Source: Terriglobia bacterium
GTDB taxonomy: Bacteria; Acidobacteriota; Terriglobia; UBA7540
Direction: 5' to 3'
Assembly: GCA_035712365.1 (NCBI GenBank)
Contig: DASTAW010000021.1
Location: 62,001-126,000, forward strand
DNA length: 64,000 nt
Below the pieces are notes generated by a model that made no database searches, was not told the origin of the DNA, and saw only the letters and a list, made by a program, of their open reading frames with translations. Made by a program: the position numbers and the translations under genes. Shown one piece after another: positions 3,458 through 24,500 of the stretch; position 1 is the stretch's first letter, and each line of letters opens with the position of its first letter.

Positions 3458-4219
3458 ATGAATTTTATTCCCGATCGCTTTCGCGGCCAATGCGTCCTGG
3501 TGGTGGGAGGCGCGCAAGGCATCGGCAAGGGCATCGCCGTGCGCCTGGCGCGTGAAGGCGCCAGCGTGATGATTGGAGACATCGACCGTGACATGATGGC
3601 CCGGACGGAGCGCGAAATCTCCGAAGCAGGCGGCTCTATTCGCACCGTGAGCTGCGACGTCCGCCGCAAGCGCGACGTGCAGCGGATGGTGGCACAAACG
3701 CTGAGCTGGCAGGGCCGCCTTGACGTTCTGATGTACGTCGCCGGAGTCGGCAAGCTGGTCCCATTTACAAAGACGGATGAGAAACACTGGGACTGGATCG
3801 TGGACATCAATCTGAAGGGCGCGTACCTGGTGGCGCGCGAGGTGGCCCCGCACATGGTCCGCCAGCGCAAAGGGAAAATGGTTTTCATGGCCTCCACGAA
3901 TAGCTGGGACGCCGAGGCCGAGCTTGCTCCTTACAACGCCTCCAAGGCCGGCCTGTTTCTGCTGGCCAAAACGCTGGCGCGCGAACTGGGGCATTGCGGA
4001 ATCAATTCCAATGCCATCGGGCCGGGCCTCATTCGCACCCGCCTCACAGCCCCTATCCTGAAAGACAAGAAATTCATGAGCAAGTATAAGGACCTGATTC
4101 CCGTCGGGCGGCTCGGCGAGCCGGAGGATATCGCGGGTCCGGCGGCTTTTCTCGCGTCTTCGGACGCGGATTACATCAACGGAGTTCTGTTGTTCGTCGA
4201 CGGCGGCCAGCTCGCCTGA
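3458..4219 (+). CDS. SDR-family NAD(P)-dependent oxidoreductase
   Basis: A 253-residue classical short-chain dehydrogenase. The Rossmann nucleotide motif is GGAQGIGKGI, followed by an acidic residue pattern GDIDRD (residues about 38-43) that suggests NAD rather than NADP preference. The structural motif appears as YVAGVG in place of NNAG. The active-site region has Ser (MASTNSW) and the Y-x-x-x-K pair (YNASKAG). The C-terminal GLIRTRL and FVDGGQ elements are typical. It oxidises or reduces a hydroxyl/carbonyl group on an unknown substrate. It leads a same-strand series with RidA and a D-threonine aldolase-like enzyme, so a hydroxy-amino-acid breakdown intermediate is a plausible substrate (inference). 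Confidence 0.9.
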   Translation: MNFIPDRFRGQCVLVVGGAQGIGKGIAVRLAREGASVMIGDIDRDMMARTEREISEAGGSIRTVSCDVRRKRDVQRMVAQTLSWQGRLDVLMYVAGVGKLVPFTKTDEKHWDWIVDINLKGAYLVAREVAPHMVRQRKGKMVFMASTNSWDAEAELAPYNASKAGLFLLAKTLARELGHCGINSNAIGPGLIRTRLTAPILKDKKFMSKYKDLIPVGRLGEPEDIAGPAAFLASSDADYINGVLLFVDGGQLA

Positions 4220-4247
4220 CCCGCCGTTCGGTTACTTTGCAGACGTG

Positions 4248-4332
4248 GGAGCAGTGGCGGCGAGTTTACCTCGCATTGGAGCAGTAGCGGCGAGTTTACC
4301 TCGCCACCTGGCGGCATAAAGCCGCCGCTACA
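4248..4332. repeat. Palindromic repeat copy with internal duplication
   Basis: The unit GGAGCAGT(G/A)GCGGCGAG followed by TTTACCTCGC occurs twice in tandem (from 4248 and from 4278), then CCACCTGGCGGCATAAA and GCCGCCGCTAC. It is the same family as the element at 3347-3394. It lies between the SDR stop and the ridA ribosome binding site. Confidence 0.75.
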
Positions 4333-4379
4333 GTCCCTTGAATTGGCGACAGCCGTAATCTCAATCAACAGGAGTTCAA

Positions 4380-4772
4380 ATGCGCAAAGTGGTCAAAAGC
4401 AAGAAGGCACCTCGGCCTCGCGGTCCCTATTCTCCGGCCATCGTGTCGGGAGGCTTTGTTTTCGTCGCGGGCCAGGCGGCCATCAATCCCGAGACCGATG
4501 AGATGGAACTCGGAGACATTCAGGCGGAAACCCGGCGCACGCTGGAGAACATCAAGGCGATTCTCGAAGCCGCCGGAAGCTCCCTGAAAGATGTTGTCCG
4601 CGTCGGGGTCTTTCTTTCCGACATGAAAAATTTCGCCGCCATGAATGAAGTCTACAAGGAGTATTTTCCCACCGACCCGCCGGCCCGCACCACGGTCGGC
4701 GTCAGCATGCCGAAAATCAAGGTGGAAATCGACTGCATCGCACAGCTCAGCAAGTCCCGCAAACGAAAATAA
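4380..4772 (+). CDS. ridA: RidA-family enamine/imine deaminase
   Basis: A 130-residue member of the YjgF/YER057c/UK114 family, which hydrolyses reactive 2-aminoacrylate and related imines released by PLP enzymes. Recognisable segments are PRGPYSPAIVSGGFVFVAGQ, the DMKNFAAMNEVYKEYF helix and PARTTVGV, in which the Arg is the conserved carboxylate-binding residue. The C-terminal IDCIAQL matches the family. AGGAG lies six bases before the ATG. It sits 13 bases upstream of a PLP-dependent D-threonine aldolase-like gene. That fits a role in detoxifying imines made by that enzyme, although RidA proteins are often general housekeeping factors. Confidence 0.92.
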   Translation: MRKVVKSKKAPRPRGPYSPAIVSGGFVFVAGQAAINPETDEMELGDIQAETRRTLENIKAILEAAGSSLKDVVRVGVFLSDMKNFAAMNEVYKEYFPTDPPARTTVGVSMPKIKVEIDCIAQLSKSRKRK

Positions 4773-4785
4773 GGATGAGTGAACT

Positions 4786-5880
4786 ATGAATTACCAGGAA
4801 CTGCCCACGCCCGCATTGACCATCGATCTCGACATCCTCGAGTGCAACCTCGACCGGATGGCCGGGTACTGCCGCGAGCACAGCATTGGACTGCGCCCGC
4901 ACACCAAGACCCACAAAGTCCCGGAAGTCGGCCGGATGCAGGTGGAACGCGGCGCCGTGGGCCTCACCGTCGCCAAGGTGGGCGAGGCGGAGGTGATGGC
5001 AGGGGCGGGATTGGATGATATCCTGATCGCCTTTCCCATCTGGGGAGAAGAAAAGCTCCGCCGCATCGCCAGCATTGCACGCGACCGCAACATCCTGCTC
5101 TCGCTCGACAACGAAGCCACAGCCGAGGGTCTATCGCGGGCGGCAAGCGCCGCCGGAGCAACCGTCGGCGTGCTGGTGGAGTTCGACGTGGGAATGCGCC
5201 GCTGCGGCGTCGAGGCCGGCCCTGCGGCCCTCGAGTTGGCCCGCAAAATCACCAGAATGCCGGGCCTGAAGTTCAAGGGTCTGATGTTATACCCCGGCAA
5301 CATCTGGGGCATGGATGTTGATCGTAAACAGATCGCGAAGCAGGTGGCCGAACGGATCGAGATGACCCTCGAACCCTTTCGCCAAGCCGGGATGGAAGTG
5401 GAAATTGTTTCCGGCGGCTCGACTCCGTCGGCTTTCCTGACCGACCGAATTCCCGGAGTGACGGAGATTCGCCCGGGCACCTACGTCTACAATGATCTGA
5501 ACACTTTTTACCAGGGCGCCTGCCGACTGGAAGATTGCGCCGCTCGCGTGGTGGCAACGGTGGTTTCAACGGCCGTCCCGGAGCGCGCCATGATTGACGC
5601 CGGCTCGAAGACCCTTTCTGCCGACGCACTGGGTTCGGGTCCCGCCAAAGGCCACGGCTATGTCGTGGAAGTTCCGGATGCGGCGCTGATCAAATTGAAC
5701 GAAGAGCACGGCCATCTGGACATCACTAATTCCTCGCACAAGTTTCACGTGGGCGAGGTGGTCACCGTCATTCCCAATCACGTCTGCACCTGTGTGAATA
5801 TGCACGATGAAGTTTTCCTTGTCCGCAAGGGCCAGGTAGAGGGCTCCTGGAAAGTTGCCGGCCGCGGAAAAGTGCGCTAA
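4786..5880 (+). CDS. D-threonine aldolase-like PLP enzyme (alanine racemase N-terminal fold)
   Basis: 364 residues with a fold-type III PLP barrel and the metal-dependent C-terminal domain of D-threonine aldolase / D-serine dehydratase (DSD1) enzymes. The N-terminal PTPALTIDLDILECNL and the RPHTKTHK segment (PLP-Lys at K41 or K44) are diagnostic. FDVGMRRCG and VSGGSTPS lie in the barrel. The C-terminal pattern HGHLD ... PNHVCTCVN supplies the His and Cys ligands of the divalent metal site. Reactions in this family are retro-aldol cleavage of D-3-hydroxy amino acids or D-serine dehydration; the exact one cannot be assigned. It follows ridA by 13 bases and is probably co-transcribed with it. 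Confidence 0.87.
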   Translation: MNYQELPTPALTIDLDILECNLDRMAGYCREHSIGLRPHTKTHKVPEVGRMQVERGAVGLTVAKVGEAEVMAGAGLDDILIAFPIWGEEKLRRIASIARDRNILLSLDNEATAEGLSRAASAAGATVGVLVEFDVGMRRCGVEAGPAALELARKITRMPGLKFKGLMLYPGNIWGMDVDRKQIAKQVAERIEMTLEPFRQAGMEVEIVSGGSTPSAFLTDRIPGVTEIRPGTYVYNDLNTFYQGACRLEDCAARVVATVVSTAVPERAMIDAGSKTLSADALGSGPAKGHGYVVEVPDAALIKLNEEHGHLDITNSSHKFHVGEVVTVIPNHVCTCVNMHDEVFLVRKGQVEGSWKVAGRGKVR

Positions 5881-15493: not shown

Positions 15494-16807
15494 ATGAAAA
15501 AAGTTGCGCTGGTCGGGAGCGGGCTGGCACTTTGCCTCATTGCAACTTGTACGTTGTTTCCAGGCAGTTCTGAAGCTCCGGCGGGTTTTGACGGCCAAAC
15601 CAACGGGCTTGTCGATCAGAAAACCCACGTCGCAGACCAGGACAAGTTTGACGAAGTCGAACAGACCAGCGACGGGTTGGGGCCGCTGTACAATGCCCAA
15701 TCCTGCCGCGAGTGCCATCAGAGTCCGGTCTCCGGCGGAGTTAGCCAGATGTCCGAACTTCGCGTCGGGCACCGAGACCCGGGTGGGCAGTTCGAGAACC
15801 CAAGCATACCCGTGGCCCACGGAAAAACCGTCATCACGGGTCGAACCCTGGTCAACGACCGCGCCATCTGCCCCAGCGGCGCCTTTCCAAGTGTCGAACT
15901 CCAGGAGAGAGTGCCGGACACCGAAGTGATTCAAGCCACGCGCATGGCCGTAAACCTTCTCGGCGATGGATTTGTAGAAGCTGTTCCCGACCAGGAACTG
16001 CTCGATCTCGCCAGGACGGAGTGCCGCCGGTCGCACCGCAGGATTTGCGGTCAAGCGCTCTACGTTCCCCTCCTCGAAGCACCCGGCAAAACCGCCATCG
16101 GGCGCTTTGGTTGGAAGGACCAGCAGGCCAGCCTGCTCTCCTTTGCAAGCGACGCCTACCTTAATGAAATGGGGATCACCAACAAATTGCTTCCCACGGA
16201 GGTCACGGCGATCTGCAATACGGCGCCCGAACCCAATGACAAGCCCGGAGCCGACGGCCTGGAGGACATCGACCACTTCGCGCGCTTCATTCGCGCCACC
16301 AAAGCGCCGCCGCGCGACATGGCGCTCGCAGACACGCCCGAGGCCGAGACGGGATCCAAGCTCTTCGACAAGATTGGCTGCTCCACCTGCCACGTCGGCA
16401 CACTGGTGACAGCACCGGCAGGGACTGAGATCGATGGGGCCACATTTAAAGTCCCCGACGCGCTCGGCAGCAAGACATTCCATCCGTATAGCGACTTTCT
16501 GCTCCACGATGTAGGAACGGGCGACGGCATTGCCGTCGCCGTGCAGGAACATTTCGGCTCCGCCGCCATGAAGCGGACGTGGCAGAATCTTTCTTACAAG
16601 AGCTTTCAGGACGCTGCCAACAAAGTTCGCACGGCGCCGCTTTGGGGAGTGCGCACGCATTCCCGCCTGATGCATGACGGGATGTCCCTGACGCTAGCTG
16701 ACGCAATCCTCCGCCACCAGAAAGAAGCACACGAGGTCGCGGAAAAGTTCAGGCGCCTCAAGCCCAAAGAAAAGGCCGCTCTTATTACCTTTCTCGACTC
16801 GCTGTAA
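15494..16807 (+). CDS. DUF1111 di-haem 'thiol oxidoreductase'-like cytochrome
   Basis: 437 residues with an N-terminal export signal (residues 1-28) and two c-type haem motifs, CRECH (71-75) and CSTCH (296-300). The spacing and the GFDGQTNG, GLGPLYNAQSC, VTGRT and MHDG(M)S(L)TL elements are those of the DUF1111 family, related to di-haem peroxidases/MauG. The C-terminal LWGVRTHSRLMHDG followed by AILRH is also characteristic. It probably works in the periplasm in electron transfer or oxidation; family members have been linked to metal- and iron-dependent uptake loci, but substrate is unknown here. A cysteine is near the signal end (LIATC), but it does not fit a standard lipobox well. Confidence 0.9.
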   Translation: MKKVALVGSGLALCLIATCTLFPGSSEAPAGFDGQTNGLVDQKTHVADQDKFDEVEQTSDGLGPLYNAQSCRECHQSPVSGGVSQMSELRVGHRDPGGQFENPSIPVAHGKTVITGRTLVNDRAICPSGAFPSVELQERVPDTEVIQATRMAVNLLGDGFVEAVPDQELLDLARTECRRSHRRICGQALYVPLLEAPGKTAIGRFGWKDQQASLLSFASDAYLNEMGITNKLLPTEVTAICNTAPEPNDKPGADGLEDIDHFARFIRATKAPPRDMALADTPEAETGSKLFDKIGCSTCHVGTLVTAPAGTEIDGATFKVPDALGSKTFHPYSDFLLHDVGTGDGIAVAVQEHFGSAAMKRTWQNLSYKSFQDAANKVRTAPLWGVRTHSRLMHDGMSLTLADAILRHQKEAHEVAEKFRRLKPKEKAALITFLDSL

Positions 16808-16914: not shown

Positions 16915-18033
16915 ATGCCAGGTAAGAAGAAGAAAGCCAGGAAATCGAGTGCGCGGGGCACTTCCACACGCAGGAAAACCAGGCCGAAGAAGCAGGCGAA
17001 GCGCGGCCCAGCCCGGACGAGAGCTGCACGGAAGAAGCCGGCCAGGCGGCCGCCTGCCGCACGGAAGAAAGTCACACGAAAGAATGTAATACCGAAGAAG
17101 CCTGCAAGGCGGCTGCCGCCTGATCTTCGCAATCATCGTGGCGGAGTGAGTCCCCGCATGCACGCACCCGCCATTCGCGGCGCCAGAACGAAAAGGCAGA
17201 AAGGAAAGAAGCAGGCGGGCAAGTTTCCCAACTTCACTTACCAGGGCGGGCCGGTGATCGCCTCGCCGCAGGTCTATACCAGCTTCTGGGGCGCCCTCTG
17301 GTCCGACGCTTTGCATCAGGCTCGCGCCCTGCGCCTCAATCAGTTCCACCGCGACTTGCTCGCCAGCGGATTCATGAATGTACTCTCCCAGTACGGCGTG
17401 GGAAACGGTGCAGGCAATAGCGGCGCCTTCGTCGGCGATAGCTTGATCAGCGACACTCCGGAAACCTTGACCGACCCCACAATCCAGGCCACCATCCAGT
17501 CAGCGATTGACCGGGGAGTCATCCCTGAGCCTGCGGCGCCCTCGAATATTGCGCTGATCATCTACCTGGATGAGAACAGCGGAGTCAACGATCCCTCCGA
17601 TCAACTGGTATTGTGCGAGCCCCAGAACGATAGTGCTTTCGGCTACCACAATTTCTTCACCACGACGGCAGGCCACAAGTTTTACTACGCCGTAATCCCC
17701 GGCTTGACAGATATGTGCCTGAAGGAGTCCTGCGCCCAGGACTCAGGCTGTTCGTTGCATCTTGCCGAAACTCAGGAACAGCGTCAAACCCAGGTGGCGA
17801 GCCACGAATTCGCAGAGATGACGACCGACCCGGAACTGAACGCCTGGCTGGATCCCCAGGCCGGGGAAAATGGCGACATCTGCAATGGTGAATCAGCGAC
17901 GATCTCAATCGGAGGAAATTCCTGGACTGTTCAAAGGACCTACAGCAAGACGGATGACATGGCGACAGGAGGCCAATCCTATTGCGTCGCAACAGCCCCT
18001 GCGCCCATTCCCCCTTTGAAGCCGGGACCGTAG
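16915..18033 (+). CDS. Histone-H1-like basic tail fused to EXORDIUM-like (Phi-1) domain
   Basis: 372 residues from the ATG at 16915, which has GGAGGT four bases upstream; an earlier GTG at 16891 is less likely. Residues 1-105 are extremely Lys/Arg/Ala/Pro-rich with KKPARR-type repeats, like bacterial histone-H1/AlgP tails, and there is no export signal. Residues ~108-365 resemble the plant EXORDIUM/phosphate-induced protein 1 domain: YQGGPV near the start, GYHNFF, and the zinc-protease-like core ASHEFAEMTTDPELNAWLD (H297, E298, E301) followed by GENGDIC. Cysteines (about 234, 268, 273, 279, 323) could form disulphides. Role unknown; the basic tail suggests DNA, RNA or polyanion binding. See findings. 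Confidence 0.72.
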   Translation: MPGKKKKARKSSARGTSTRRKTRPKKQAKRGPARTRAARKKPARRPPAARKKVTRKNVIPKKPARRLPPDLRNHRGGVSPRMHAPAIRGARTKRQKGKKQAGKFPNFTYQGGPVIASPQVYTSFWGALWSDALHQARALRLNQFHRDLLASGFMNVLSQYGVGNGAGNSGAFVGDSLISDTPETLTDPTIQATIQSAIDRGVIPEPAAPSNIALIIYLDENSGVNDPSDQLVLCEPQNDSAFGYHNFFTTTAGHKFYYAVIPGLTDMCLKESCAQDSGCSLHLAETQEQRQTQVASHEFAEMTTDPELNAWLDPQAGENGDICNGESATISIGGNSWTVQRTYSKTDDMATGGQSYCVATAPAPIPPLKPGP

Positions 18034-18180: not shown

Positions 18181-18615
18181 CTATGCCTGCTCGCGGTCTG
18201 TAGCAACTTCATTCCGCGCCGATTTCTCAATGACGCAAGTGGGCATGTCGCAGTGGCCGGTGAAGTAAGCGCCGGACTCGAGTTTTAGCGAGGGCGTCTC
18301 AATATCGCCCAACAATATGCCGTGCTCTTTGATTTCGAGTTGCTTCGTGGCGTGGATGCTCCCTTTTACCTTGCCCGCGACGCTGACTTTCTCCGCCTCG
18401 ATGTCGCCTTCGATCTCTGCCTGGCTGGCCACCACCACGGTCCCCGCCGAGCAGATTGTGCCTTTGAACTGGCAGTCCAGCCGGATCATTCCCGAGGGCA
18501 CTTTGATCCGGCCTTCAATCTCAATCCCCGGATCGAGCAAGGCAACGATTTCGTCGTCGTCAGCCGTGCCCTGGCTAGCCTGCCGAAGTTGTCGTGCAAT
18601 AAAGTTAAGACCCAT
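18181..18615 (-). CDS. Bactofilin (polymer-forming cytoskeletal protein)
   Basis: 144 residues with the bactofilin core (about residues 22-120). Short beta-helix rungs recur, such as IEGRIKVPSGMIRLDCQFKG, AEIEGDIEAEKVSVAGKVKG and HGILLGDIETPSLKLESGA, each with conserved small/hydrophobic positions and Gly turns. The flanks are short and polar, as usual. Bactofilins self-assemble into nucleotide-independent filaments at the inner face of the membrane and scaffold cell-wall or shape-determining enzymes. GGAGG lies five bases before the ATG. No M23 peptidase or other usual partner is adjacent. Confidence 0.92.
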   Translation of the reverse strand: MGLNFIARQLRQASQGTADDDEIVALLDPGIEIEGRIKVPSGMIRLDCQFKGTICSAGTVVVASQAEIEGDIEAEKVSVAGKVKGSIHATKQLEIKEHGILLGDIETPSLKLESGAYFTGHCDMPTCVIEKSARNEVATDREQA

Positions 18616-19448: not shown

Positions 19449-20081
19449 TTATCGGTTCCAGCCCTGCTCGACGCCTCGATACCCATGTTGATAGCCCGCC
19501 AGGAAACCTTCGCGATATTGGCGTTTGTATTCCTGCTTTGGACCAAAATCGTGATGGTAGCCGTGATCGGCATCTTCATACCGATCATTCTTTTCAGGTC
19601 TGAAATCCTTATTTTTCCTGCGGTCCTTTTCGCCCTGGACCACTCCATCGCTGAAGCCTGCCTGAAAAGCTACATTGGTACGCCCGTAGTAGCCAGAGCC
19701 ACGATCTTGCTCGTAGGCCTCGCCACCCGGGTAGGGAGGGCCGCTGGCACGTGCTTCGAAGCGGCTTTCGCGGCCATAATAGCCGTCGTTATAGCCCGCC
19801 GCGTATCCCTGACGGTAGCCATCCCTGTAGAGGTCCGGATTTCCCATGTAAGCACCGTAGCCGCGCATCGCGTTGTCGTAGTCCCTGCTCTCCATATTGA
19901 AATCAACCTGCGCGCCGCGGTCCTCGCTTCCGTGCTGAAATCCGTCCAGGTATCCATTGCGGAAGCCGTAGGCGTTCGAGCCTTGTGGGCCCTGGTCATA
20001 GCGCTGGTGAGCAGAGGCCACTCCACACAGCGAAAGCGCCACAACGCACGCGAAGCTTAGCCTGACAAGTTGTTTAACCAT
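19449..20081 (-). CDS. Secreted Tyr/Gly-rich repeat protein
   Basis: 210 residues with a clear signal peptide (MVKQLVRLSFACVVALSLCGVASA, cleavage after ASA at about residue 24). The mature protein has at least four versions of a Y/F-x-x-G-(Y/F)-x-x-G motif: FRNGYLDGFQHG, YRDGYRQGYAAGYNDG, FQAGFSDGVVQG and YREGFLAGYQHGYRG. They are separated by Arg/Asp/Tyr-rich linkers. This periodicity suggests short amphipathic helices or a Tyr-lined surface. Function is unknown; an envelope or extracellular structural role is plausible. A perfect GGAGG lies before the ATG. No enzymatic motif is visible. Confidence 0.78.
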   Translation of the reverse strand: MVKQLVRLSFACVVALSLCGVASAHQRYDQGPQGSNAYGFRNGYLDGFQHGSEDRGAQVDFNMESRDYDNAMRGYGAYMGNPDLYRDGYRQGYAAGYNDGYYGRESRFEARASGPPYPGGEAYEQDRGSGYYGRTNVAFQAGFSDGVVQGEKDRRKNKDFRPEKNDRYEDADHGYHHDFGPKQEYKRQYREGFLAGYQHGYRGVEQGWNR

Positions 20082-21440: not shown

Positions 21441-22775
21441 TCAGTACCGCGTGGCAGACGAGAAATTGAACTCATTCACCTTCATGGCGGGAACCACCAT
21501 CTCAAAAGACTCTTCGCCGGCGGTCCGTTGTGCCGCGCCCATGGCTTCGACCTGATTCAGCATGTCGAACAGACTCTGGTTGAATCGCAGGTTCTTGACG
21601 CCGTGCTTGACCTCGCCATCTTCAATCCAGAAAGTCCCGTCGCGCGTCATTCCGGTCAGGATTTTCTGGTAAGGATCGACTTCGCGGATGTACCAGAGCC
21701 GGGTCACCAGCAGGCCGCGCGCGGTGGACTTGACCATGTTCTCCACGGTTTTTTTGCCGCCCTCCATCACGATGTTCATCGGCGCCTCGCCGTATTCGTT
21801 GGGAAGCGGAAAGCCGTGGCCCGTGGCGGTCTTTCCCATCTTGCGGGCCGTCGCTCTGGCGTACACCAGATTGGTGACTTTTCCCTTCTCCACCAGCTTC
21901 ACGCGCTGCCTCGGAATTCCCTCGCCGTCAAACGGAGCGCCTGCCTGCAAAGGATGAAACACGTCGTCGCGGATGTTGATGTTTTCGCCAAAAAGCTTTT
22001 CGCCAACCCGGCCGGTCAGGCAGCTTCGGCGCTCCTGGACCGCGAGGCCGCCAAAATCGAAGAAGAGAAAACCCAGCAGGTCCAGCACCGCGGCCGGCTC
22101 AAGGATCACCGTGTATTTGCCCGGCGCGATGTCCTGCGGGCGCTCGCTCTCGAGCGCCTTCGAGACCGCGCGGTCTGCCAGCATCTCCGGCTCGAGTTCC
22201 ATGCAGGAAGGCGAAGTCTTCTTGGCCCACCCGGAGCTTTCCTCCTTCAGCATGGTGATCGAGAACTCGGAGCTGGTTTCTTCGTGGAAAGCTTCCAGGC
22301 CGCGCGAGTTGAACAGGCCCGTCACGAACGTCCCGTTTGAATAGACCCCCGCAGCCGTCAGGCCGTCCTTCCCGGCGCGCTCGATGGCTGTCCGGACCGT
22401 CTCTGCGCGGGCCTGCGGACTCAACTCCGCAGATTCGGTGTCAAACCGGTCCACCGCCCGGTACATTTGAGGGCCTGGCATCGGCAGCAGGTCAGGGTCG
22501 GCGGGCTGCAGTCGCGCCAGCGCCAGCGCCGCTTCACAAACCTGCCGGATGGAATTTTCGTCGAGCTTATTGGTGCTGGCACGCGCCGTCCGCTGGTTGA
22601 CCACCGCCCGCACCGAGAGGTTCAATCCTTCTTCGGCAACGTTCTGGTGAATTCCGTTGTTGGCGAAGCGCGTCAGCGCATAAGCCGTGGAGGTAATAAA
22701 AGCTTCCGTCTCGTCGGCGGTGGAATACTTGAGGACCTTCTTGAAGATTTCCTTTGCCCGTTCGCGTTTGAGCAT
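21441..22775 (-). CDS. tldE: TldE/PmbA-family metallopeptidase subunit
   Basis: 444 residues of the TldD/PmbA family, the subunit without the HExxxH motif. Family elements are FANNGIHQN and the SVRAVVNQRTARASTN strand region near the N-terminus, PGKYTVILEPAAVLDLLGFL, GLAVQERRS and the C-terminal TRDGTFWIEDGEVKHGVKNLRFNQS in outline. In E. coli, TldD and TldE form a heterodimer that degrades unfolded peptides and processes microcin B17 and CcdA; TldE supplies the closed tunnel while TldD provides zinc. The gene follows tldD by 74 bases on the same strand, so the pair is one unit. No RiPP precursor is apparent nearby. Confidence 0.9.
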   Translation of the reverse strand: MLKRERAKEIFKKVLKYSTADETEAFITSTAYALTRFANNGIHQNVAEEGLNLSVRAVVNQRTARASTNKLDENSIRQVCEAALALARLQPADPDLLPMPGPQMYRAVDRFDTESAELSPQARAETVRTAIERAGKDGLTAAGVYSNGTFVTGLFNSRGLEAFHEETSSEFSITMLKEESSGWAKKTSPSCMELEPEMLADRAVSKALESERPQDIAPGKYTVILEPAAVLDLLGFLFFDFGGLAVQERRSCLTGRVGEKLFGENINIRDDVFHPLQAGAPFDGEGIPRQRVKLVEKGKVTNLVYARATARKMGKTATGHGFPLPNEYGEAPMNIVMEGGKKTVENMVKSTARGLLVTRLWYIREVDPYQKILTGMTRDGTFWIEDGEVKHGVKNLRFNQSLFDMLNQVEAMGAAQRTAGEESFEMVVPAMKVNEFNFSSATRY

Positions 22776-22849
22776 CGTTTCGCCAGCAATCTCCCGTGGT
22801 CATTTGCCGCCCGGCATTGCGCGGCTGACCAGCCAGAGGGACAATCCCG

Positions 22850-24307
22850 CTATTTTGAATACGCCACGCCCACCTGCACCTTGCGGAAGCGCGTGGGAGA
22901 AGCGCCGTGCCCGGTCCCCATGGTCTGCATTGGCTGTCCCTTGCCGCAGTTCGGCGTACCCCACAGCGTCCATTCTTCCGGGCCGCAGATGGCGTCACAG
23001 GAATTCCAGAACTCGGTGGTGATCCCGCCGTAGCTGGGGTTTTTCAGCATCCGGACCCGCTTGCCGTTCTTGATTTCCCAGCCGATTTCCGTTCCAAACT
23101 GAAAATTGTAGCGGCGGTCATCAATGGACCAGCTCCGGTTGGTTTCCATGTAAATTCCGTCGTCGGTATCGGCGATCAGATCTTCAAGCTTGCCCTGGCC
23201 CGGAAGCAGGCTGACGTTGGTCATGCGGATCAGCGGGATCCTGTTCCAGCCTTCGGCCCGCATGCTTCCATTGGAGCGTTCCTGGCCGATCGCCGCCGCG
23301 GTTTCGCGTGAAGTCAGATAACCGGTGAAGAGCCCTGCCGTGATAATCGGAGTGTTGTTCGCCGGCACGCCCTCGTCATCATAGGCGAATGTGCCGAGGC
23401 CCGGCCCGTGCGCAGGCGTGGCATCGGCAACCACGTTCACAATGTCTGAAGCGTACTTGAGAGTGCCGAGCTGGTCGAGCGTCAGAAAACTCATGCCCGC
23501 AAAATTCGCTTCCGTTCCCAGCACGCGGTCAAGCTCGATGGGGTGACCGATCGACTCATGAATCTGCAGCCCCACCTGAGAGCTCCCCAGGATGATGTCC
23601 CGTTCACCTGCCGGACATTGGTCGCAGGCGTGCAATGCCGCCGCTTCCTCGGCAATGCGCGGAGCGTTGCCCAGCAAGTCCAGCTCCTCGATCAATTCGT
23701 AACCTTTAGTCTGGTATTGCCCGCCAAACGAGTTCGGATAAGACCGCCGCTGGATTTCCGTCCCGTCAAATGACGTGGCCACGAATCCGGCGCCGGTCTG
23801 ATTTTTGATCTGCCGGATTTCCGAGCCGTTGCTCGAAACAAAAAGCTGATCGATGCGGTGGAAGTCCATCGCCACTTCCGCGAGAGTGATGTTCTTCACC
23901 CTGCGCAGCTCGGCATCGATTTTCAACATCAGGTCCAGGCAGCCTGACACGGGAATCAAAAAAGGATCAATCCGGCAGGGGCCTTCCCACTGGTCCACGG
24001 TCTTTGCTTCCGGAGCGAGTTGAACATCCTGGCGTTTTGCCAGCGCGCTGGCCCTGGCAATCTCCACCGCCTTAAGTCCGGCGGCGAGGATGCCCTGGCG
24101 GGAGAGATCGTCGGTGGAGGCAAAGCCCCAGGCGCCGTCCACAATCACCCGTACTCCCAGGCCGAGCGACTCCGATTCTCTCACCTGTGCTGTTTTGCCG
24201 TCCTTGGTGGAAAGATATCGCTGGCGAATGTCCATCACGCGGGCGTCAGCGTAAGTTGCGCCCTGCGATGTGGCTGCGTCGAGCGCCAGAGCTCCGAAAT
24301 TTTCCAT
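22850..24307 (-). CDS. tldD: TldD-family zinc metalloprotease subunit
   Basis: 485 residues from the ATG at 24307. An apparent extension to 24496 is excluded because its first codons lie in a dispersed repeat. Residues 250-255 are HESIGH, the HExxxH zinc site of TldD. LGTEANFAGMSFL, AYDDEGVPANNTPII, SNGSMRAEGWNRIPLIRMTN in outline, and GQPMQTMGTGHGASP are family landmarks. The last includes the Cys-x-x-Gly-Gln (CGKGQ) segment that contributes to the metal site. Acts with TldE as a cytosolic peptidase on extended peptides. The upstream gap to ahcY (~200 bases) contains the partial repeat, so tldD-tldE probably has its own promoter. Confidence 0.92.
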   Translation of the reverse strand: MENFGALALDAATSQGATYADARVMDIRQRYLSTKDGKTAQVRESESLGLGVRVIVDGAWGFASTDDLSRQGILAAGLKAVEIARASALAKRQDVQLAPEAKTVDQWEGPCRIDPFLIPVSGCLDLMLKIDAELRRVKNITLAEVAMDFHRIDQLFVSSNGSEIRQIKNQTGAGFVATSFDGTEIQRRSYPNSFGGQYQTKGYELIEELDLLGNAPRIAEEAAALHACDQCPAGERDIILGSSQVGLQIHESIGHPIELDRVLGTEANFAGMSFLTLDQLGTLKYASDIVNVVADATPAHGPGLGTFAYDDEGVPANNTPIITAGLFTGYLTSRETAAAIGQERSNGSMRAEGWNRIPLIRMTNVSLLPGQGKLEDLIADTDDGIYMETNRSWSIDDRRYNFQFGTEIGWEIKNGKRVRMLKNPSYGGITTEFWNSCDAICGPEEWTLWGTPNCGKGQPMQTMGTGHGASPTRFRKVQVGVAYSK

Positions 24308-24468
24308 CGCGCAAACCTGTTCCAGGAAGGGGCTGCTGGTCCCCTGGCGTTTACTAATCAGCCGAGCTTTCTCGATTTTTGGTCCGGTTTCCTGCAAAGA
24401 ATCATGGACTGTAAATTGACGGGAAAGGTGAACAGCAAAGCCATCACAGGCAGCAGTCCTGCCGCGTT

Positions 24469-24500
24469 GTTTGTAGCGCCGCCGTCCCGGTGGCATTTTC
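24469..24500. repeat. Half copy of the 'GTAGCGCCG' palindromic element
   Basis: TGTTTGTAGCGCCGCCGTCCCGGTGGCATTTT is nearly identical to the left part of the copy at 38844, but the second half and the conserved outer end are missing. It lies between ahcY and tldD and creates a false N-terminal extension of tldD beginning MPPGRRRYK. Confidence 0.7.

Follow-up and report, generated by a model that had tools for sequence, protein, structure and literature searches.

The open reading frame at 16915–18033 of the window, the whole 64,000-nucleotide stretch of DNA that was analyzed, encodes what we tentatively read, with nearly an even chance of being right, as a leaderless protein of the EXORDIUM branch, in which a metzincin-like core with a variant metal site would be joined to a genus-specific polycationic anchor. 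The layout of the gene and its upstream neighbor is given in Table 1.

Table 1 Features of the EXORDIUM-like gene and its upstream neighbor
Feature	Position in the window	Strand	Basis or remark
Whole gene, 372 aa	16915–18033	+	ORF and sequence; GGAGGTG ribosome-binding site just upstream
Polybasic tail, residues 1–73 (16 K, 16 R, 1 D, 0 E), predicted disordered	16915–17133	+	Among the loci examined, confined to this genus
Leaderless N-terminal segment, subfamily motif RGGVSPxxxxPAIRG and basic linker, residues 74–103	17134–17223	+	Alignment, N-terminus survey
EXORDIUM-like (PF04674-related) acidic core, residues 104–372, metzincin-like predicted fold	17224–18030	+	
Putative metal site HEFAEMTTDPELNAWLDPQAGENGDIC: H297, E298, E301, D305, E318, D321, C323	17803–17883	+	Family signature
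DUF1111/DHOR di-haem cytochrome c	15494–16807	+	Pfam; synteny; 108 bp upstream of the gene

The open reading frame is a real gene, because GGAGGTG, a strong ribosome site, stands at a normal distance before the ATG and because start and frame are common to a sister species (G002). The sister protein is 80% identical and begins with the same MPxKKKKA; the sequence before the start diverges. A misannotated start, which would leave the tail untranslated, was ruled out, since both start codon and ribosome site are conserved, the sole later ATG ahead of the core lies downstream of the RGGVSP motif, and the tail codons evolve like coding sequence. A promoter and terminator scan returned nothing.

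The profile match to bacterial PF04674 proteins is decisive evidence from sequence comparison that the core is homologous to EXORDIUM, although the match to PF04674 is indirect. A profile of the query family aligned by hhalign to nine bacterial loci, most of which are direct PF04674 hits, at 99.1% (E 7.7e-19, 228 columns). In addition, tblastn links the query to two loci, L019 and L020, which match PF04674 directly (1.6e-30 and 3.2e-28), and a mixed 16-row alignment contains 17 invariant columns. The signature YxGGPV...GYHNFF...HEFAEMTTDP...GENGDIC, common to PF04674 proteins, is present in the query. Over the 228 columns, the query and the EXORDIUM family share the landmarks GGP, G[YW]H, HExxE..[TS]D, NAW.D and E.[GA]D.C, whereas the query differs in lying below the Pfam threshold and in lacking a signal peptide. 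Compared to the canonical PF04674 branch, its canonical Cys positions are partly replaced and others are gained. The EXORDIUM-type domain proposed in the initial annotation is thus upheld as to homology and signature, but not as a direct Pfam assignment. The PF04674 search suggested there yielded no match above the curated cut-off (25 bits) for the query protein, its close relatives or the whole genome, and the relation to EXORDIUM came instead from the profile comparison. Direct Pfam and NCBIfam searches of the query protein gave nothing above threshold, and a PDB sequence search gave spurious short matches only.

Structure modeling suggests that the core is most likely a metzincin-like domain with a predicted variant metal site, in which the cysteine framework is kept. 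AF2 models, built from a shallow alignment of 9 sequences, reached a pTM of 0.63 at full length and 0.80 for the core, with pLDDT falling to about 43–52 after the active-site helix. Structural comparison of both models to the PDB (VIA) returned almost only metzincins, with Z up to 9.2 and 8.2. The rank-50 Z was 7.0–7.4 for the two models, compared to the 4–5 stated to be typical when there is no clear match. The archaemetzincins 3lmc and 2x7m led at Z 8–9, followed by adamalysins, ADAMs and ADAMTSs. Foldseek against the PDB also found metzincins, but with a best E of 0.026–0.027 and TM-scores of 0.2–0.4, so that no match is significant alone; against viral structures it found nothing useful. 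We take the order of strands and helices in the model to resemble that of metzincin N-terminal subdomains. The metal-hydrolase-like character anticipated by the initial annotation is accordingly borne out at the level of a predicted fold and an HExxE signature.

In the model, a long helix (287–304) carries H297-E298-x-x-E301 and is followed by D305. The fold and the position of the HE-containing helix would be common to the query and the metzincins (archaemetzincin, adamalysin/ADAM). However, HExxExxx[DN] replaces HExxHxxGxxH, so that the second and third zinc histidines are absent, no Met-turn was identified, and identity is 4–15%. Archaemetzincins proper carry HExxHxxGxxHC (PMC3427221), and the metzincin zinc signature HExxHxxGxxH/D is absent from the query family. 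Among the papers searched, none linked EXORDIUM with metzincins. The signature HExxExxx[DN]...W...ExxDxC occurs in essentially every readable full-length homologue, secreted or leaderless, the exceptions being L004, an HT variant, and L022, to which the pattern did not fit. In L004 (positions 3815–5155, Ktedonobacteraceae), HT stands for HE and Cys268, Cys279 and Cys357 are all lost, as if site and disulphides had decayed jointly.

Close relatives, with core identities of 55–88%, are few and have a scattered distribution. They were found in 5/39 genomes of the organism's own family, with a weak partial match alone in a sixth, and in 8/399 genomes of a class sample. A few more occur in Chloroflexota (Ktedonobacteria), in ANGP1 and in one Chitinophagaceae bin; plasmids and viral contigs contained no relatives. 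Outside the genus, their N-termini span about 40–65 residues, most with an RGGVSPxxxxPAIRG-like motif before the core. Two close relatives (L007:1802–2877 and L008:2219–3105) are split across two reading frames, as pseudogenes or assembly errors. Several close relatives (L002, L004, L006 and L014) continue past LSPGP with a conserved C-terminal stretch of about 75 residues, which is missing from the query. One entry of the first locus list, L009, was rejected as an unrelated ABC-type protein having only GYHNFF in common. Among the signal-peptided PF04674 genes, four form a tandem array in a single genome (L032 and L037–L039; G347 contig C1, 227321–232230).

The missing export signal is a property of the whole leaderless part of the superfamily. 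The initial annotation had noted that the query has no signal peptide; its N-terminus has no hydrophobic stretch, the best 11-residue mean hydropathy being 0.19, whereas every canonical PF04674 relative reaches 1.95 or more. By this simple hydropathy proxy, which is not a dedicated signal-peptide predictor, the N-termini of all 23 of 23 canonical bacterial PF04674 proteins resemble signal peptides, while all 12 of 12 close-subfamily members and 41 of 49 intermediate relatives from Acidobacteriota and Chloroflexota are leaderless. The other intermediate relatives are mostly large secreted fusions, for example with DUF11. In the tree, the query clade has 100/100 support and three changes of leader state are needed, one of them at L033, whose reading frame is cut by the locus edge. 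An export signal hidden upstream was ruled out by in-frame upstream reading for the query and other members. Plant EXO is apoplastic and has an N-terminal secretion signal (PMC2661892, PMC3691544), and leaderlessness had been called unexpected for this fusion; its occurrence across the close and intermediate relatives shows that it is not peculiar to the query.

Acidobacteriota and Chloroflexota also contain a second clade of leaderless EXORDIUM-like proteins (L124, L125, L015, L130–L133 and others), which has the highly conserved motif P-[IV]-[RK]-[IV]-V-P-L directly before the core. Like the query, it has no signal peptide and the same core signature, but its N-terminus is mostly 20–60 residues, it is about 30–34% identical and its N-terminal motif is another one. 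In secreted relatives with fused domains, for example L045 and L139, a similar motif comes after the signal peptide. In L043 (1312–3279), a leaderless EXORDIUM-like domain is fused to a repeated FG-GAP_3-type beta-propeller region, which we count in favor of the preferred explanation.

Cys279 and Cys323 are invariant in the 16-row alignment, which mixes leaderless and secreted branches, and Cys268 and Cys357 are present in 11 rows. Because these cysteines are kept in both branches, they hint at an oxidizing, non-cytoplasmic location, which is short of proof; they could instead have a structural or metal-related function in a cytoplasmic protein. The analysis turned up no export route, and the only conserved neighbor is the DUF1111 cytochrome in one genus.

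The DUF1111 cytochrome lies directly upstream, as had been noted at the outset, and in the sister species it is 81% identical and likewise adjacent to the homologue. It is absent beside all other relatives examined, and DUF1111 relatives in three further genomes (G004, G006 and G017) are without an EXORDIUM-like partner. An operon or system was rejected, as eight loci had no common neighbor except DUF1111 in the sister species. The adjacency is limited to the two tail-bearing species, and therefore the cytochrome is given no mechanistic weight. On the minus strand downstream lie a bactofilin gene convergent to the EXORDIUM-like gene (18181–18615), a secreted-looking 210-residue protein with repeated YxxGYxxG-like motifs and no convincing Pfam match (19449–20081), and a pair of TldE-like and TldD-like metallopeptidase genes with PmbA_TldD domains (21441–24496).

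The Lys/Arg/Ala/Pro basic tail is present as described. Residues 1–103 contain 21 K, 21 R, 1 D and 0 E (net +41, pI about 12), compared to a net charge of −19, a pI of 4.3 and six Cys in residues 104–372. In the AF2 model, residues 1–102 have no secondary structure and very low confidence, as expected for a disordered tail. Comparison of the two species indicates that the tail is translated and under purifying selection, with a constraint that appears loose on sequence and tighter on charge, because dN/dS, the synonymous excess and the retained basic positions all point this way. Between query and sister, dN/dS is 0.33 for the tail (73 codons), 0.26 for the motif segment and 0.06 for the core. 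In the tail, synonymous exceeds non-synonymous change (Fisher p 2e-4), and 26 of the 32 K/R positions stay K/R, which was reached in 0 of 20,000 shuffles.

The long tail is restricted to two species of this genus, as a survey for the same fusion established; other subfamily members begin near RGGVSP...PAIRG, at about residue 75. In 84 proteins surveyed, the query has the highest N-terminal K/R count (42), followed by its sister (41) and then by a protein with 20. The outcome that the initial annotation had named as refuting its reading, homologues that consistently begin after the basic region, thus largely applies outside the genus; within it, the tail is nonetheless a genuine extension under selection. 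Its assignment to the bacterial H1/AlgP kind is not supported: the protein reached 12 bits (E 0.23) against the HC2 profile (PF07382), whose curated cut-off is 40 bits. What it shares with H1-like proteins (HC2, AlgP type) is a K/R/A/P-rich low-complexity composition; it differs from them in having no significant profile match, in being genus-specific and in being fused to an acidic domain. Elsewhere in the genome, only weak compositional matches to the tail were found, none convincing by score.

In the explanation we prefer, the protein would be a member of a bacterial, leaderless branch within the EXORDIUM (PF04674) superfamily, with a metzincin-like core whose HExxE helix, subsequent D and downstream ExGD may form a variant metal site using H/E/D ligands instead of three His. 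The core would most likely act as a metal-dependent hydrolase, or as a binding protein that descends from such an enzyme, in an oxidizing, extracytoplasmic environment reached without a Sec/Tat signal peptide. A polycationic extension of roughly 75 residues, added in this genus ahead of the N-terminal segment typical of the subfamily, probably anchors the acidic core on a polyanion, be it a polysaccharide of the cell surface or matrix, polyphosphate or a nucleic acid.

Against this explanation, a cytoplasmic protein that binds nucleic acids would account equally well for a polybasic tail and a missing signal peptide. Such a nucleoid-associated protein, put forward in the initial annotation, would use its H1-like tail to bind DNA or RNA and so carry the EXORDIUM-like domain to the nucleoid; it would agree with the leaderless N-terminus, the low-complexity composition with its one acidic residue and the weak compositional match to HC2. 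We nevertheless consider it improbable, given that this match is far below the cut-off, that the rest of the leaderless clade has no tail, so that leaderlessness has another cause, that the cysteine framework is common to secreted relatives, and that the genome holds no convincing similar tail. Somewhat less improbable, if still doubtful, is a tail that lacks any target of its own and, as a disordered extension specific to the lineage, offsets the acidic core through self-contact, solubility or autoinhibition. The opposite charges of tail and core, the restriction to two species, the higher dN/dS of the tail and its predicted disorder are all compatible with this, but purifying selection and retained K/R positions point to some constraint, and the charge is larger than the core would need.

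A further alternative concerns the core, which could be a dead metzincin relative, having neither metal nor enzyme activity and serving in binding or as a structural module. That the second metzincin zinc ligand is Glu here, that the third His is absent and that L004 has lost the general-base Glu together with three cysteines speak for it. Against this, H, E, E and D, like the later E and D, otherwise persist in essentially every readable member, across two phyla and in secreted and leaderless proteins alike, which is unusual for a dead site. We regard inactivity as unlikely, though it is the strongest of these three competitors to the anchored, metal-site-bearing protein proposed above.

Arabidopsis requires EXORDIUM proteins for cell expansion and for responding to extracellular carbon (PMC2661892, PMC3691544), and the rest of the EXORDIUM primary structure is stated to resemble no other known domain (PMC3691544). 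In 2009, one bacterial relative was known, in Solibacter usitatus (PMC2661892); the superfamily now appears in many Acidobacteriota and Chloroflexota in secreted and leaderless forms. The tail fusion is a genus-level, lineage-specific detail, and the leaderless branch and the predicted metzincin-like fold of an orphan domain are the more interesting result. It is possible, although we lean against it, that the members of the whole superfamily, the plant growth regulators among them, are metalloproteins of metzincin fold that have a hitherto unrecognized HExxE(x3)D...ExGD metal site, and that a large bacterial branch works without a signal peptide, with a polycationic tail as anchor in this genus. 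A metzincin-like fold would place the near-invariant acidic and His signature in a metal site, turning a domain of unknown function into a question for mutagenesis and metal analysis.
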